A DNA stretch of 5,305 nt from a bacterium. GTDB taxonomy: Bacteria; JAHJDO01. Shown here in pieces: positions 226 through 5,305 of this stretch. How positions within the stretch are numbered: position 1 is the first letter of the stretch; every line of letters begins with the position of its first letter. A model generated the notes under the pieces. It made no database searches and was not told the DNA's origin. It was given only the letters and a program-made list of their open reading frames with translations. Location: NCBI GenBank assembly GCA_030652805.1, contig JAUSPT010000093.1, positions 1-5,305 of the forward strand, read 5' to 3'. Both the position numbers and the translations under genes were made by a program.

Positions 226-723
226 ATGAAAAAAGATAAAAAATGCAGCCCGGATATGGAGGATTATCTGGAGGCTATACTTATTCTTAAAGAAAGACAT
301 AAGGTTGCGAGAGTTAGAGACATAAGCCGCCTGATGAATGTAAAACCGCCCAGTGTAGCCTCAGCTCTACAGACTCTTTCCAGAGATAATTTTGTGATTC
401 ATGAGGCATATGGCTATGTTGACCTTACTCCAGAAGGAGAAGAATTAGCTAAAAGAATACAAAAGCGGCATGAAATGCTGAGCAAATTCCTGAGAGAAAT
501 TCTGTGTATTAATCCAAAAATAGCGGCAGAAGATGCCTGCAGAATGGAGCATGCGATCAGTCAGGAAACATCAAAAAAGTTGACAAAGTTCTTAGAGTTT
601 GTGCAAACCTGCCCGGATCATGATAGACCTGATTGGCTGAAGAGTTTTGATCATTATTTTAAGACTGGCAAGCGGCTAAAGTGTAAGATAAGAGAGCTTA
701 AACAGAAAGATGAGACTAAGTAA
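226..723 (+). CDS. DtxR/MntR-family metal-dependent transcriptional repressor
   Basis: This is a cytoplasmic DNA-binding protein that, in this family, dimerises and represses iron or manganese uptake genes when loaded with Fe(II) or Mn(II). At 165 aa it has the short two-domain form: an N-terminal winged helix-turn-helix (about residues 10-75, wing near YGYVDLTPEG) and a helical dimerisation/metal domain (about 76-140), without the C-terminal SH3-like domain of 226-aa DtxR. By alignment from memory, metal ligands are D13 and E16 (from MEDYLE), H82, C105, E108 and H109 (from ACRMEH). C105 matches the DtxR iron-site Cys, whereas D13 matches MntR D8 rather than DtxR Met10. The CPDHDRPDWL stretch (about 129-138) resembles a segment seen in other short anaerobe homologues. 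The start is set by the M after AAGG at 215-218. Next to feoAAB it is probably the iron-responsive repressor of this operon. The family call is firm; metal preference is not. Confidence 0.93.
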   Translation: MKKDKKCSPDMEDYLEAILILKERHKVARVRDISRLMNVKPPSVASALQTLSRDNFVIHEAYGYVDLTPEGEELAKRIQKRHEMLSKFLREILCINPKIAAEDACRMEHAISQETSKKLTKFLEFVQTCPDHDRPDWLKSFDHYFKTGKRLKCKIRELKQKDETK

Positions 724-742
724 TTTATGAAAGGGGGAAAAT

Positions 743-979
743 ATGGTTGATATGGTATTAAGCGAACTAAAACCAGGTCAAGGAGGCAAGATTACGAAGA
801 TCTCGGGCAAAGGTTCTGTTCGCAGGCGAATTTTGGATATGGGAGTTGTTAAGGGAGCGGACATAGAGATGGAGCGGGTTGCTCCATTAGGGGATCCGAT
901 TGAAGTAAAGATAAAAGGGTATCATCTCTCCCTGCGTAAAGAAGAAGCTTCGGATATACATGTGGAAATAAAAAAATGA
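743..979 (+). CDS. feoA: FeoA-type SH3-like ferrous iron transport accessory protein (first copy)
   Basis: This small cytoplasmic protein (78 aa, usual for the family at 75-85) assists FeoB-mediated Fe(II) uptake, probably by contacting the FeoB cytoplasmic part. Family hallmarks are visible in order: LSELKPGQGGKI (6-17), a central RRRILDMG (27-34) followed by VVKGADIE, the APLGDPIEVKIKGY strand pair (47-60) and LSLRKEEA (62-69). It lies 19 bp after the regulator stop, with a strong AAGGGGG Shine-Dalgarno (731-737) that supports the ATG at 743 over the in-frame ATG at 752. Its stop overlaps the next feoA start. This copy keeps the canonical APLGDP motif better than its neighbour. Confidence 0.95.
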   Translation: MVDMVLSELKPGQGGKITKISGKGSVRRRILDMGVVKGADIEMERVAPLGDPIEVKIKGYHLSLRKEEASDIHVEIKK

Positions 980-1215
980 AGGGGCAGTATTTACCTTTGA
1001 ATATGGTCTCACCTGGCAGAAAAGTGAAACTAGTTGCAGTAAGAGGTGGTCAGGGTATAAGAAGAAGGCTTAATGATATGGGGTTAAGTATAGGGGCGGA
1101 ATTTAGAATTATACACTCCCACTTTTTCGGGCCATGTATTATTGCTGTAGATAATACAAGATTGATTCTTGGCCGTGGAATGTCTCATAAGATATTGGTA
1201 GAAGATACATCTTAA
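976..1215 (+). CDS. FeoA-type protein (second, divergent copy)
   Basis: This is a second 79-aa FeoA-fold protein, translated from an ATG overlapping the first feoA stop (ATGA, 976-979). It lacks a strong Shine-Dalgarno of its own, so translational coupling is likely. It keeps LNMVSPGRKVKL (8-19), GIRRRLNDMGLSIGAEF (27-43) and a terminal strand TRLILGRGMSHKILVE (61-76). The segment equivalent to APLGDPIEV reads SHFFGPCIIAV (48-58), so the Asp is missing and a Cys (C54) and His residues (H47, H49) appear. Tandem FeoA genes before feoB are known in several anaerobes, with the two copies probably not redundant. Which copy contacts FeoB cannot be told from sequence. The fold call is strong; the specific role is inference. 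Confidence 0.9.
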   Translation: MKGQYLPLNMVSPGRKVKLVAVRGGQGIRRRLNDMGLSIGAEFRIIHSHFFGPCIIAVDNTRLILGRGMSHKILVEDTS

Positions 1216-1223
1216 ATTTTTTT
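1202..1223 (+). terminator. Weak attenuator-like hairpin plus T7
   Basis: AAGAT (1202-1206) and ATCTT (1209-1213) are inverted repeats at the very end of the second feoA, followed by AAA and seven T residues (1217-1223). The arrangement resembles an intrinsic terminator, but the stem is only 4-5 pairs, A/U-rich and has a 2-4 nt loop, so it would be inefficient. At most it might reduce transcription into feoB; it may be chance in AT-rich DNA. Confidence 0.2.
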
Positions 1224-1232
1224 ATGTATAAA

Positions 1233-1249
1233 GTTAGATAGATACAACA
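1233..1249. promoter_or_regulatory. Candidate second regulator box before feoB
   Basis: GTTAGATAGATACAACA matches the putative operator at 174-190 at 12 of 17 positions and keeps the same GTT-N10-AAC dyad geometry. It lies in the 70-bp AT-rich gap between the second feoA and feoB. A TATAAA at 1260-1265 could be a -10, but no convincing -35 is seen. If real it would let the metal regulator control feoB separately; chance similarity in AT-rich DNA is possible. Confidence 0.25.
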
Positions 1250-1285
1250 TAGTTATATATATAAAACAAAGAGGAGGAATAAAGA

Positions 1286-3433
1286 ATGCAAAAGAAGCTA
1301 ACTATTGCTTTAGCGGGTAATCCCAATTCAGGGAAAACCACTGTGTTTAACAATCTGACAGGAGCACGCCAGCATGTAGGCAATTATCCGGGCGTAACTG
1401 TTGAAAAGAAAGAAGGGACTTTAAAGTATAAGGATTACTCAATAAACATAGTTGATTTGCCGGGAACGTACAGTTTGACAGCCTATTCAATTGATGAAAT
1501 TGTTACACGTAATTTTGTGATAGAAGAAAAACCGGATGTAGTAATTGATGTTATTGATACTTCCAATCTTGAGAGAAATCTGTATTTAGCCACACAGTTT
1601 ATGGAGTTGGGCGTTCCTTTAATCCTTGCTTTAAACATGTCTGATGTAGCAAAAAAGCAGGGAACAAAGATAGATAAAAACAGGTTAGCTGAGCTTTTAG
1701 ACGTTCCTATTGTTTCTACTGTAGCTACTAAAAAAATTGGCATGAAAGAATTACTTGATGAGATAGTGAGTCTTGTTGAAGCCAGAACTGAACCAGAAAA
1801 AACAATTGTGCATTATGGGAAGGAGATTCGGGAGGAGCTAAAAAAACTGGAGGAAATTCTCAAAAAAGATAAACCTCTTGGAGAAAAATATCCTTTAAGA
1901 TGGCTGGCAGTAAAGCTCTTGGAAACAGACGAGGAGATTATAAAAAAAATAGAGGAAAGTTCCTTTTCGGAGGAGATTCTAAGCGCAGTAGAAAAGAGTA
2001 CTGCTCATTTAAAAAGCATCTTTAATGATGAGCCTGACGCAATAATTGCAGACAGGCGTTATGGATTTATTAGCGGTGCATGTTCTGAAGCAGTTTCAAG
2101 AAACTATGAAACACGTCATACCTCCTCTGACAGGATAGATAAGGTGCTTGTTAATCGTATCTTAGGCTTGCCTATTTTCCTTGGGTTAATGTGGTTAGTA
2201 TTTAGATTTACTTTTAAAGCAAGCGAGCCTTTAATGGGCTGGATTGAGTCAGCGCAGGAATGGTTAGGAAACATGTTTGGCGGGTTTTTACCTGATGGCA
2301 GCGCAATTCGATCATTAGTGGTTGATGGAATAATCGGCGGAGTAGGAAGCGTGCTTATATTTGTGCCGATTATATTCCTGTTATTTCTGGCAATGGCTGT
2401 TTTAGAGGACTCAGGATATATGGCAAGAGCAGCTTTTATTATGGACAGGCTTATGCATAAGATTGGTTTGCATGGCCGCTCTTTTATTCCAATGCTCTTG
2501 GGTTTTGGCTGTAATCTGCCTGCAATTATGGCAACAAGAACAATAGAGGATAGGAAAGACAGACTGGTAACTATTCTGGTTAATCCTTTTATAAGCTGTG
2601 GCGCAAGACTACCTGTATATACTTTGTTTATCGGAGCATTCTTTGCTGAAAGGATAGCAGGGAATGTATTATTCTCTCTATATATTCTTGGGATGATCGT
2701 AGCTATTGTAATGGCTAAGATATTTCGCAGATTTCTGTTCAAGGGCCCAGCATCGCCATTTGTTATGGAACTTCCGCCTTATCGTATACCAACTGTAAAG
2801 GGGCTTTTTATCCATATGTGGGAAAGAGGAGTGGTTTATTTAAAGAAAGCAGGGACAGTTATTTTTGTCGGGTGTGTCCTAATCTGGTTTTTGAGTAATT
2901 TCCCATGGCAGCCCCAATATTCAAAAGACTACAATACTCTAATTGAACAGGCTCAAGAGAATGAAGGATTAGTTTCCAAACTGGAAAACGAAAAGGCATT
3001 TGAGAAAATGGAGAAGAGTTATGCGGGAAGGCTTGGCAGGATAATCTCCCCTGTGTTCAAGCCTTTGGGATTCGACGATTGGAAGACGTCTGTAGGATTA
3101 ATTGGGGGGTTTATTGCAAAGGAAGTTGTTGTTGGAACATTAGGAACGCTTCATTCAGTTGGCGAAGCGGATGAAGAATCCAAAACTCTGCGTCAGGCGC
3201 TTCAGAATCAGAAGCGTTCCGATGGAAGCAGAATGTATAATCCATTAGTTGCTTACAGCTTTATGGTTTTTGTACTTCTATATATGCCATGTGTAGCTGT
3301 AATTGCAGTAATAAAGAGAGAAACAAATTCGTGGAGATGGCCGATATTCACAGCAGTTTATACCACTGCTGTTGCATGGATAGTTGCCTTCCTTATTTAT
3401 CAGGGCGGAATGCTGCTAGGGTTTGGAGGGTAG
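1286..3433 (+). CDS. feoB: Ferrous iron transport protein B (GTP-dependent Fe(II) permease)
   Basis: This inner-membrane protein imports Fe(II) in anaerobic or reducing conditions. Its N-terminal G domain shows G1 GNPNSGKT (11-18), G2 Thr38 within NYPGVTVE, G3 DLPGTYSL (57-64), G4 NMSD (117-120) and a G5-like stretch from about 144. A helical GDI-like spacer spans about 170-275. The membrane part starts near residue 292 (LGLPIFLGLMWLVF), with further helices around 352-375, 461-480, 522-539, 601-620, 656-676 and 682-705. The two inverted Gate motifs are recognisable: GFGCNLPAIMATRT with C409 and NPFISCGARLPVY with C438 in the first, and FIAKEVVVGTLGTL (K612, E613) plus YMPCVAV (C669) in the second. 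At 715 aa it is complete and within the family range. AGGAGGA at 1272-1278, 7 nt before the ATG, fixes the start. No feoC follows; yezD begins one base after the stop. Confidence 0.98.
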   Translation: MQKKLTIALAGNPNSGKTTVFNNLTGARQHVGNYPGVTVEKKEGTLKYKDYSINIVDLPGTYSLTAYSIDEIVTRNFVIEEKPDVVIDVIDTSNLERNLYLATQFMELGVPLILALNMSDVAKKQGTKIDKNRLAELLDVPIVSTVATKKIGMKELLDEIVSLVEARTEPEKTIVHYGKEIREELKKLEEILKKDKPLGEKYPLRWLAVKLLETDEEIIKKIEESSFSEEILSAVEKSTAHLKSIFNDEPDAIIADRRYGFISGACSEAVSRNYETRHTSSDRIDKVLVNRILGLPIFLGLMWLVFRFTFKASEPLMGWIESAQEWLGNMFGGFLPDGSAIRSLVVDGIIGGVGSVLIFVPIIFLLFLAMAVLEDSGYMARAAFIMDRLMHKIGLHGRSFIPMLLGFGCNLPAIMATRTIEDRKDRLVTILVNPFISCGARLPVYTLFIGAFFAERIAGNVLFSLYILGMIVAIVMAKIFRRFLFKGPASPFVMELPPYRIPTVKGLFIHMWERGVVYLKKAGTVIFVGCVLIWFLSNFPWQPQYSKDYNTLIEQAQENEGLVSKLENEKAFEKMEKSYAGRLGRIISPVFKPLGFDDWKTSVGLIGGFIAKEVVVGTLGTLHSVGEADEESKTLRQALQNQKRSDGSRMYNPLVAYSFMVFVLLYMPCVAVIAVIKRETNSWRWPIFTAVYTTAVAWIVAFLIYQGGMLLGFGG

Positions 3434-3437
3434 CGTG
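3425..3437 (+). promoter_or_regulatory. Ribosome binding site inside the feoB 3' end, driving a GTG start
   Basis: GGAGGG (3425-3430) encodes the last Gly codons of FeoB and also serves as a strong Shine-Dalgarno 4 nt before the GTG at 3435. This decides the start of the small gene and implies translation coupled to feoB termination. The spacing is slightly short, but no in-frame ATG exists in the gene. Confidence 0.6.
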
Positions 3438-3587
3438 AAACTCACGAGTAAAAGGAAAGGCATTAATCCAAAGATATTGGAAGAGGTGGCAGAATATATC
3501 AATCAAATAAACTATGGAGAGGTGGTAATAGTAATTCATGATTCAAAAATCGTTCAAATAGAAAGAAAAGAAAAAAAGCGCTTTTAA
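3435..3587 (+). CDS. YezD/DUF2292-family small protein
   Basis: This 50-aa basic protein reads from a GTG one base after the feoB stop. It matches the small YezD family (DUF2292), whose typical form is a short helix (here NPKILEEVAEYINQI, about 11-25), then a G-centred turn (YGE, 27-29), a hydrophobic strand VVIVIHDSKIVQIER (30-44) and a charged tail. The HD-K-VQIERKEK core is the hallmark I recognise. There is no signal peptide or membrane segment, so it is probably cytoplasmic. The biochemical function of the family is unknown to me. Its position directly after feoB and before a porin suggests an accessory role in this uptake operon, or a small regulator. The open reading frame and SD support are clear; family assignment is by motif memory and fairly confident. 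An AAAAGCGCTTTT palindrome (3574-3585) covers its last codons. Confidence 0.8.
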   Translation: MKLTSKRKGINPKILEEVAEYINQINYGEVVIVIHDSKIVQIERKEKKRF

Positions 3588-3687
3588 TTTAAGCCAGCCA
3601 CTGTACAAACAGAGCTAAAATCTAAATTGGCTTTAGGATACCGACTGAACAAGCAGAGGTCATAGAGCAAAAAGTAAGGAGAAGGAA

Positions 3688-4920
3688 ATGAAATTTGACC
3701 TCAAGATTGGATTAGCCGGTGTTTTAATTGTTGCTTTTCTCAGCAATGCTTGTATGGGGGGCAGTGAAACTGCTCAAAAAGGAGTTACAGAAGAACAGAG
3801 AGGAGCTGCAGCAAAGATAATAGACTTATTACAAAGGAAAGGAATTATTACAGCTTCGGAAGCAGAAGAGTTGAAGAAAGAGCTCATAACGAAGAAGCAG
3901 AAAGAAAAAGCCAAGATAGCCAAATCTATAGAAGATAAGACACAGGCAAGCTTTAAGGTTCCGCAGATTGGTTCAGATAAGATGAAGATAGGGGGAATGA
4001 TTAAATTTAGAAATTCTCATTGCCGGGGACATAAAGAGGATAGATCGACAACATCAAGCGGGAAGAAAGACTATGATACTTTTAAGGTTTCAGACGATTC
4101 CCTTGATATTGAGGGAGAAATTACAGACGACTGGAACTACGGTATCAGCCTTACGATGAACGAACAGGATAATGGGAGCAATCTAAGGGATATATGGATG
4201 CAATGGACAGGTTTACCGTATGCTGCAATAACAGCCGGTCAGTTCAATGTTCCATTCAGGGAAGGGGTGGATACAATAGAAGAAGTAGAAGTAGTTGATT
4301 CCATAACACCTGAAAGAGATATTGGTGTGGCAGTTAGCGGAGATATCCTGGATAAGAAAATTACTTATGCTTTAGGTGTATTTAATGGGAGCGGCATCAA
4401 TACCTCGGATGATAATGACCAGAAGGACATTATAGGAAGAGTAGTTGTCTCTCCCTTTAAAGACAGTAATGGGGTATTGGAGGGATTGAGCATGGGTGTA
4501 TCAGCTCAGGGAGGACGTCAGCCTAATGAAACTTCTGAAGGAATTACTTATGGCGGAGACAGAACAAGAATCGGCGGCTTGCTCAAATATGAAGGGAATA
4601 TAGCCAATAGAGGATTTAAACTTCAGGGTGAATATATTCAGCAGAAAAGAGACAGGGATGACCAGAAAGCTGATATCAGTTCTGATGGATGGTACGCGCA
4701 AGCAACATATGAACTCAATCCAAAGTGGTGGTCTGTTTACCAGTATGGAGTGTACAATCCAAGTGGAAAGTCTTCAGGTGATACAAGAAGGACAAGCACA
4801 GTGGGCATCAAATACACTTTCAATGAGTATACGAGTATACAGATGGACTACAGAACGCTAGAATATCCTAACTCTAAGAATGGCCAAGAACTTCTAACTG
4901 AACTTACACTGGAATTTTAA
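3688..4920 (+). CDS. Phosphate-selective-porin-like (OprO/OprP family) outer-membrane protein
   Basis: This is a predicted outer-membrane beta-barrel of 410 aa, in the usual size range. Residues 1-21 form a signal peptide (positive residues, then GLAGVLIVAFL). SNA-C22 could be a signal peptidase I site or a poor lipobox. A charged helical segment follows (about 37-75: IIDLLQRKGIITASEAEELK, then Lys-rich), typical of the N-terminus of these porins before the barrel. The barrel carries family hallmarks: LRDIWMQW, AGQFNVPF (183-190), ITPERDIGVAVSGD, a YALGVFNGSG strand and DIIGRVVVSPF. It ends with alternating residues and a terminal Phe (ELTLEF), the outer-membrane assembly signal. AAGGAG at 3676-3681 supports the ATG. 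It lies 100 bp after yezD on the same strand with no clear terminator between, so co-transcription with feo is plausible. The family name does not prove phosphate specificity; passage of metal or anions is equally open. Confidence 0.88.
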   Translation: MKFDLKIGLAGVLIVAFLSNACMGGSETAQKGVTEEQRGAAAKIIDLLQRKGIITASEAEELKKELITKKQKEKAKIAKSIEDKTQASFKVPQIGSDKMKIGGMIKFRNSHCRGHKEDRSTTSSGKKDYDTFKVSDDSLDIEGEITDDWNYGISLTMNEQDNGSNLRDIWMQWTGLPYAAITAGQFNVPFREGVDTIEEVEVVDSITPERDIGVAVSGDILDKKITYALGVFNGSGINTSDDNDQKDIIGRVVVSPFKDSNGVLEGLSMGVSAQGGRQPNETSEGITYGGDRTRIGGLLKYEGNIANRGFKLQGEYIQQKRDRDDQKADISSDGWYAQATYELNPKWWSVYQYGVYNPSGKSSGDTRRTSTVGIKYTFNEYTSIQMDYRTLEYPNSKNGQELLTELTLEF

Positions 4921-4953
4921 TGCTATAGCCATTCTAGGTACGTGTGCACATAT

Positions 4954-5025
4954 TGCCACAGTGCAGGAGAACAAAAGTATTCTGTGCTGTGGTATTAAAT
5001 AGGGTTTCTTATTTAGTCGTTTTTT
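4954..5025 (+). terminator. Long hairpin and weak terminator candidate after the porin
   Basis: CCACAGTGCAG (4956-4966) pairs with CTGTGCTGTGG (4982-4992) over all 11 positions with two G-U pairs, extendable to 13 pairs (4954-4994), with a 15-nt loop. A second, AT-only stem (4994-5001 with 5010-5017) is followed by T6 at 5020-5025. Neither alone is ideal: the strong stem lacks an immediate T-run and the stem near the T-run is weak. Together they probably end the porin transcript. Confidence 0.4.
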
Positions 5026-5183
5026 CCCTTTCTGTTTCTTGCTATGTGGCTACTTTGTTGTGTAAGTGACATTATATTTCCACTTTTGTTTGTGAAAGAC
5101 AGAAAAGTCTAACCCCAGTAAAGACACCCTGTTCCTACACATTTCCGCCAGAAAACCAGAAAACTCTGTAATACACAAATGAT
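5026..5183. other. Gene-free stretch between terminator region and IS end
   Basis: No start codon with a ribosome binding site, no reading frame of useful length and no RNA gene is evident on either strand. It may be decayed sequence flanking the insertion. The outer boundary of the insertion sequence could lie inside its last 30 bases. Confidence 0.4.
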
Positions 5184-5228
5184 AATGTCCTATTTGGCAC
5201 ATTTAGAAATGTCCTAATTTAAAGAGGC

Positions 5229-5259
5229 TATAATACCCGATTTAATAGGAGGGTATTAT
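5229..5259 (+). promoter_or_regulatory. Transposase -10 box and RBS within a perfect inverted repeat
   Basis: ATAATACCC (5230-5238) and GGGTATTAT (5251-5259) are exact reverse complements around a 12-nt loop. The left arm overlaps a consensus TATAAT (5229-5234). The right arm and loop contain the Shine-Dalgarno AGGAGGG (5247-5253) and the A and T of the ATG at 5258. A transcript begun from this -10 (near 5241) would lack the left arm; a longer read-through transcript would hide the ribosome binding site. No good -35 is visible. Confidence 0.5.
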
Positions 5260-5305
5260 GGCAGAAAGGGATATTATCATGGCAAGTCAAAGAGAGCTAA
5301 AGCGG
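5258..5305 (+). CDS. ISNCY-family transposase, N-terminal fragment (truncated by window end)
   Basis: Sixteen codons are present, MAERDIIMASQRELKR, open to the window edge. This opening, (M-x-R-D-I-I-M-S-Q-x-E-L-K-R), matches the N-terminus I recall for ISNCY-type transposases, where it leads into a helix-turn-helix that binds the IS ends and then a DDE catalytic domain. AGGAGGG at 5247-5253 supports the ATG at 5258 over the in-frame ATG at 5279. The fragment is cut by the window, not visibly broken. With only 16 residues the family call rests on motif recognition plus the upstream repeat structure, and integrity of the element cannot be judged. Confidence 0.7.
   Translation, partial: MAERDIIMASQRELKR

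Follow-up and report, generated by a model that had tools for sequence, protein, structure and literature searches.

A fold-back lock over the transposase start site predicted at the left end of an IS1202-like insertion sequence

The last part of the 5,305-nucleotide stretch of bacterial DNA analyzed here (the window; the IS features placed below are on its forward strand) is the left end of an IS1202-like insertion sequence (IS), and in this end the promoter -10 region of the transposase gene can pair, in RNA, with the ribosome binding site (RBS) and start codon of the same gene. We consider this hairpin to be a fold-back lock against accidental transposase expression, with a probability of roughly 0.8 and with the translation block and the transcription start both being predicted. 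Transcription from outside through the left end of the IS would copy the promoter DNA into RNA, and the transcribed stretch from -10 to about -1 would then pair with the Shine-Dalgarno (SD) sequence, the spacer, and the ATG, blocking ribosome entry. RNA from the IS promoter, conversely, would begin just 3′ of the left arm of the hairpin, leaving the start site open and translatable. What is established computationally is the pairing, its covariation among relatives, the selected codons, and the location of the pairing with respect to the -10 hexamer.

The left tip of the IS is at position 5167, and the final 139 bases of the window (5167–5305) belong to the element. The genome contains 10 further copies of this left end, of which five are 99–100% identical, one 95%, and four 86–87%, with the matches to these copies starting at 5165–5167; a broken fragment represents one additional match in the genome. 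The window, and with it the contig, stops inside the transposase gene, the start of which (MAERDIIMASQRELKR..., 5258–5305) is identical to that of the 423-aa transposase ORF of a complete copy, L005. This 423-aa protein matches the profile NF033594 (ISNCY_2) with 399 bits (cut-off 250, E 2e-119) and, in a by-eye comparison with the published family description (PMC10132070), has a glutamine seven residues past the catalytic glutamate (GRIERLFKTFQDR), which is a marker of the proposed IS1202 family (PMC10132070). L005 is ~1.47 kb in length and its tips (TGTAAT.../TGTCAA...) carry GTCC repeats, consistent with the size criterion for the family of about 1.3–1.75 kb with imperfect terminal inverted repeats. 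By the markers tested (profile match, E+7 = Q, and size and ends) the IS is assigned to the IS1202 family. A target duplication of 15 bp was identified in two complete relatives, L033 and L061, and those of ISTde1-like members are listed as 16–17 bp (PMC10132070). With these ISTde1-like members the IS shares its transposase size, the glutamine at E+7, and TGT-tipped ends (PMC10132070), and the 15 bp of its two relatives comes near to their 16–17 bp (~15–17 bp taken together).

The preliminary description of this DNA had noted a 9-bp perfect inverted repeat joining the -10 region to the RBS and start codon. The repeat is real (5230–5238, ATAATACCC, and 5251–5259, GGGTATTAT) and is the core of a longer RNA stem, in which 5227–5238 pairs with 5251–5262 to give 12 bp, including one U·G, around a 12-nt loop; the pairs that extend the core are T5229–G5260 (the wobble), C5228–G5261, and G5227–C5262. 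The left arm (GCTATAATACCC) holds the -10-like hexamer TATAAT and the discriminator after it, and the right arm (GGGTATTATGGC) the end of the SD, the spacer, the start codon, and the beginning of codon 2. The SD, GGAGG (5248–5252, read from the sequence and used as such in the calculations below), lies partly in the stem with the remainder in the loop, and the ATG (5258–5260) lies in the stem. The predicted fold of the read-through RNA from 5168 to 5290 has an energy of -36.7 kcal/mol (z -5.1, 0/200 shuffles). An Rfam search of 4900–5305 gave no match at the gathering score, and a search of 4850–5305 for a rho-independent terminator at the left end returned 0 terminator-like sites. We rejected a reading of the hairpin as a terminator rather than an RBS hairpin, because it has no U-run and its right arm contains the SD and ATG.

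Sequestration of the start site was measured as the cost of freeing the SD to the ATG in a 71-nt context. This opening cost is 15.6 kcal/mol in the window and was reached by 0/200 dinucleotide shuffles of the upstream part. As controls, nine stretches of the same genome supplied 58 ORFs with a strong SD, mechanical calls rather than curated genes, whose costs average 2.65 and do not exceed 7.4. For comparison, 29 left ends, near-identical copies among them, were drawn from the same genome, genome contigs, and whole genomes of other phyla; viral contigs searched by pattern and by protein yielded no relatives, and phylum searches around two of the relatives no new elements. All but two of the left ends (27/29) are harder to open than every one of the 58 control ORFs. 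For single elements the shuffle p-values are often only 0.01–0.1, since CT-rich sequence readily finds pairing partners in the start region. The stems of L007 and L012 carry an A–C mismatch, L012 being a broken copy; L007 may be intact and, despite the mismatch, has an opening cost of 11.9 kcal/mol. A separate observation concerns L037, which has ATA at the start-codon position and an intact RBS hairpin; this copy may be dead or using another start.

The preliminary description had named beforehand, as a test able to refute it, whether the arms are conserved or compensating in related elements, and we found both arms to be kept and to covary in relatives with 50–85% transposase identity. The score was computed on eleven elements that share one register and have no bulge in the stem; among these, 91.5% of cells are paired and the covariation score is 0.318, as against 0.194 shuffled (0/500) and 0.121 for the best of the slid registers. 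Past the -10 hexamer, the first two pairs occur as four and five standard pair types, respectively (G-C, A-U, U-A, and U·G for the first; C-G, U·G, U-A, A-U, and G·U for the second). Counted alone, pairs in which both sides have changed are not above shuffles, with three observed and 124/500 shuffles reaching three. The transposases of the covarying elements are only 49–85% identical, which makes it unlikely that the pair changes represent one inherited event, in a count that ignores the tree. Among nine distant plasmid-borne relatives, four have strongly closed start sites [L086 (ISEsa1 element), L090, L091, and L092 (ISKpn21)], whereas in the five ISAjo2-like elements on plasmids (L087, L088, L089, L093, and L094) a comparable lock is absent or weak, so that the wider family does not have it throughout. 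As a feature of their surroundings, the left flanks of L089–L094 were seen by eye to contain a dif-like sequence (TTAACATAA...TTAT), which precedes the first end repeat by a few dozen bases. Dif-like flanking sequence has been reported for the ISAjo2 group.

A second helix, missed in the preliminary description, is predicted to enclose the RBS hairpin. Its left arm (5179–5190, ATGATAATGTCC) lies in the terminal inverted repeat, of which it forms the inner part, and its right arm (5269–5280, GGATATTATCAT) comprises transposase codons 4–8. RNA entering from outside would contain the left arms of both helices and IS-promoter RNA would start past both, and the outer helix would thereby close the whole region in read-through RNA only. 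In 24 elements, between 7 and 12 of the first 12 outer-helix positions pair; in L024, L023, and L061 the helix is mostly lost. The right arm also shows a codon bias, in that the second isoleucine of the KDII motif is encoded by the rare codon ATC in 16/17 elements, where 2.4 would be expected from their own codon use and where the maximum in 200,000 simulations was 10 (the elements are related and hence not fully independent). This excess of ATC shows that selection acts on the nucleic acid and not on the protein alone. We give an even chance to a two-layer lock, in which the terminal inverted repeat, the site of transposition, doubles as an antisense arm to codons 4–8 and closes the RBS-hairpin domain, such that RNA crossing the IS end would be closed off by a pair of helices unavailable to native RNA, with codon-level selection across the group. 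A two-helix lock of this kind would, as a second layer, possibly be new.

A doubtful, although possible, alternative is that the conserved letters are DNA sites, with the arm in codons 4–8 being an additional binding site for the transposase (the tip copied in reverse orientation) that serves autorepression and the RNA pairing a by-product. In favor of this, the coding arm reads as the terminal inverted repeat in reverse complement, and selection for ATC at the nucleic-acid level fits either reading. However, the coding arm matches only the left-tip variant, GATAATGTCC, whereas the other end repeats have the form TAGAAATGTCC, which it does not match, and because of this fit we judge the RNA reading of the outer arm to have better odds than the binding-site reading. 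The tip and the codons also change jointly in L056 (GATAATAATGTCC with GGACATTGTTATC) and in L040, as coevolving binding sites could likewise do, and the inner hairpin is left unexplained by DNA sites.

It is unlikely that the inner hairpin acts also on RNA from a junction promoter, assembled from a right tip TTGACA abutting a left tip TGATAAT, and so limits transposase from circular or tandem intermediates. Many members do have an outward TTGACA at the right tip, GATAA is located 14 nt in from the left tip in 8/8 elements checked, and the inner hairpin would be retained in RNA from 5194. Such a junction requires a linker of 2–4 bp, yet the target duplications are 15 bp, and junction promoters normally boost transposase, whereas the hairpin would silence it.

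To return to the fold-back lock, it was already claimed in the preliminary description that the left arm is present only in RNA from outside, and the placement of the arm in most elements agrees with this prediction. The putative -10 hexamer of the transposase promoter, TATAAT (5229–5234), is conserved in relatives and predicts a start at about 5241. In most of the 29 elements the best -10-like hexamer in the 62 nt upstream that were searched lies within the left arm, and the predicted start is no more than about 3 nt from the 3′ end of the arm. The predicted native mRNA would be without the left arm, because the arm covers the -10 hexamer and continues to about the predicted start. The majority of predicted start-region pairs (267/324) use nucleotides upstream of the predicted start, and the median opening cost is 12.5 kcal/mol for read-through RNA and 3.0 kcal/mol for predicted native RNA, the latter resembling that of ordinary ORFs; the predicted native RNA of the window, taken as 5236–5300 or 5241–5305, is essentially unstructured. 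The left arm of the two distant relatives L041 and L028 is upstream of the candidate -10 and still outside the predicted native RNA. Thus the position of the arm varies and its absence from the predicted native RNA does not, which is the pattern to be expected if the arm were selected for that absence. We infer where transcription starts, that translation is blocked, and that the selected benefit is protection against transposition.

The native RNA and its start are treated as predictions throughout, since no consensus -35 was found upstream of the TATAAT, and a TAGAAA at 15–19 nt is no better than chance. A TATAAT without a recognizable -35 would also be consistent with a native mRNA that starts further upstream, in which case the hairpin would be in every transcript and keep translation low, or sense temperature or a factor, comparable to the 5′ stem-loop of IS200, where the RBS is sequestered by a stem-loop in the element's own tnpA 5′UTR (PMC12594629). 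We consider this quite unlikely in view of the coincidence of the best -10 hexamer and predicted start with the left arm in most elements. A TG extension is also found at the -10 in 8/24 elements, among them elements with the hexamers TAAACT, TAAAAT, TAGAAT, and TATAAA, and its presence in most of the elements with a deviant -10 hexamer in the arm is as would be expected of a working promoter. Chance pairing, whereby TATAAT merely resembles the complement of ATTATG and a CT-rich discriminator pairs with any SD, is very improbable, for while TATAAT/ATTATG does form part of the stem and 5/3000 mononucleotide shuffles of the upstream part reach the opening cost of the window, neither the ATT before the ATG nor the discriminator is fixed by promoter or RBS function, discriminator and spacer covary, and nearly all elements exceed every control ORF.

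The closest known systems are IS10/Tn10, whose protection from outside transcription was reportedly described by Davis, Simons, and Kleckner in 1985 (cited in PMC2965389), and IS50/Tn5, which is protected by the same principle. As in IS10 and IS50, a sequence of the outer end that is missing from native transposase mRNA, the start of which is predicted in our case, pairs with the RBS in read-through RNA. The present element differs in having a transposase of an unrelated family, a left arm that reaches from the -10 hexamer to the predicted start, pairing that covaries among family members, and an additional helix between the terminal repeat and codons 4–8. The likeness to IS10 and IS50 drawn in the preliminary description is one of principle, and its finding is right in substance and stronger than the sequence alone could show, this probably being self-protection of the IS10/IS50 type newly seen in an IS1202-like family. 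We found no description of such a lock for ISNCY/IS1202 elements in the open-licence literature, although an older one elsewhere is possible, and the terms promoter, hairpin, stem, and ribosome are absent from the IS1202-family paper (PMC10132070).

Two other types of control at IS ends bear comparison. In IS200 one 5′ stem-loop terminates impinging transcripts and another occludes the RBS (PMC3196728, PMC12594629). In both IS200 and the present IS the stem-loops would lower transposase synthesis (here by prediction); however, the RBS stem-loop of IS200 is within its own tnpA transcript, whereas the present hairpin should be missing from native mRNA, and, unlike in IS200, a terminator is not predicted at the present left end. 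The 5′ terminators that precede transposase genes in several IS families ("mobile attenuators") stop expression of an IS located in a transcribed region (PMC2965389); they terminate transcription, whereas the present hairpin has no U-run and would target translation initiation. The lock would extend a textbook mechanism of self-restraint, so far known in a few elements, to an IS family that is widespread but has been little studied; covariation and codon choice supply the comparative evidence, from several phyla. It would explain how an IS can lie within or downstream of transcribed genes and yet not be activated. It also suggests a rule for which all IS families can be scanned, namely whether the promoter stretch from -10 to -1 pairs with the RBS.

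Upstream of the IS, positions 226–4920 encode, in one direction, a DtxR-type repressor, two FeoA, FeoB, and a porin O/P, and represent an iron-uptake cluster with a porin attached. The preliminary description had argued from read-through out of this porin operon, which it took to be active. We did not accept the operon as active, and the argument from the neighborhood adds little, because a strong stem-loop separates the porin, which ends about 247 nt upstream, from the IS; the case is carried by the comparative evidence. This stem-loop (~4954–4994, about 15 bp) lies between the porin stop and the IS and has no adjacent U-run.

Several further observations concern the ends of these elements and the sites into which they have inserted. 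An exact outward -35 sequence, TTGACA, ends the right tip in most complete members, namely L005, L018, L033, L064, L065, and L075, and GATAA(T) is at 5182–5187 in the window. In L033, L024, and L061, TTGACA or TTGACT is found directly past the right copy of the target duplication (that of L024 being imperfect), hinting at insertion just upstream of -35-like sites. Two short derivatives without transposase, in L016 (~188–220) and L013 (~1501–1570), have a left tip almost abutting a TTGACA-type right tip. In L012 (~226–320), another transposase-less derivative, an inverted left tip is joined at the site of codons 4–8, as if the rearrangement had been mediated by the outer inverted repeat.
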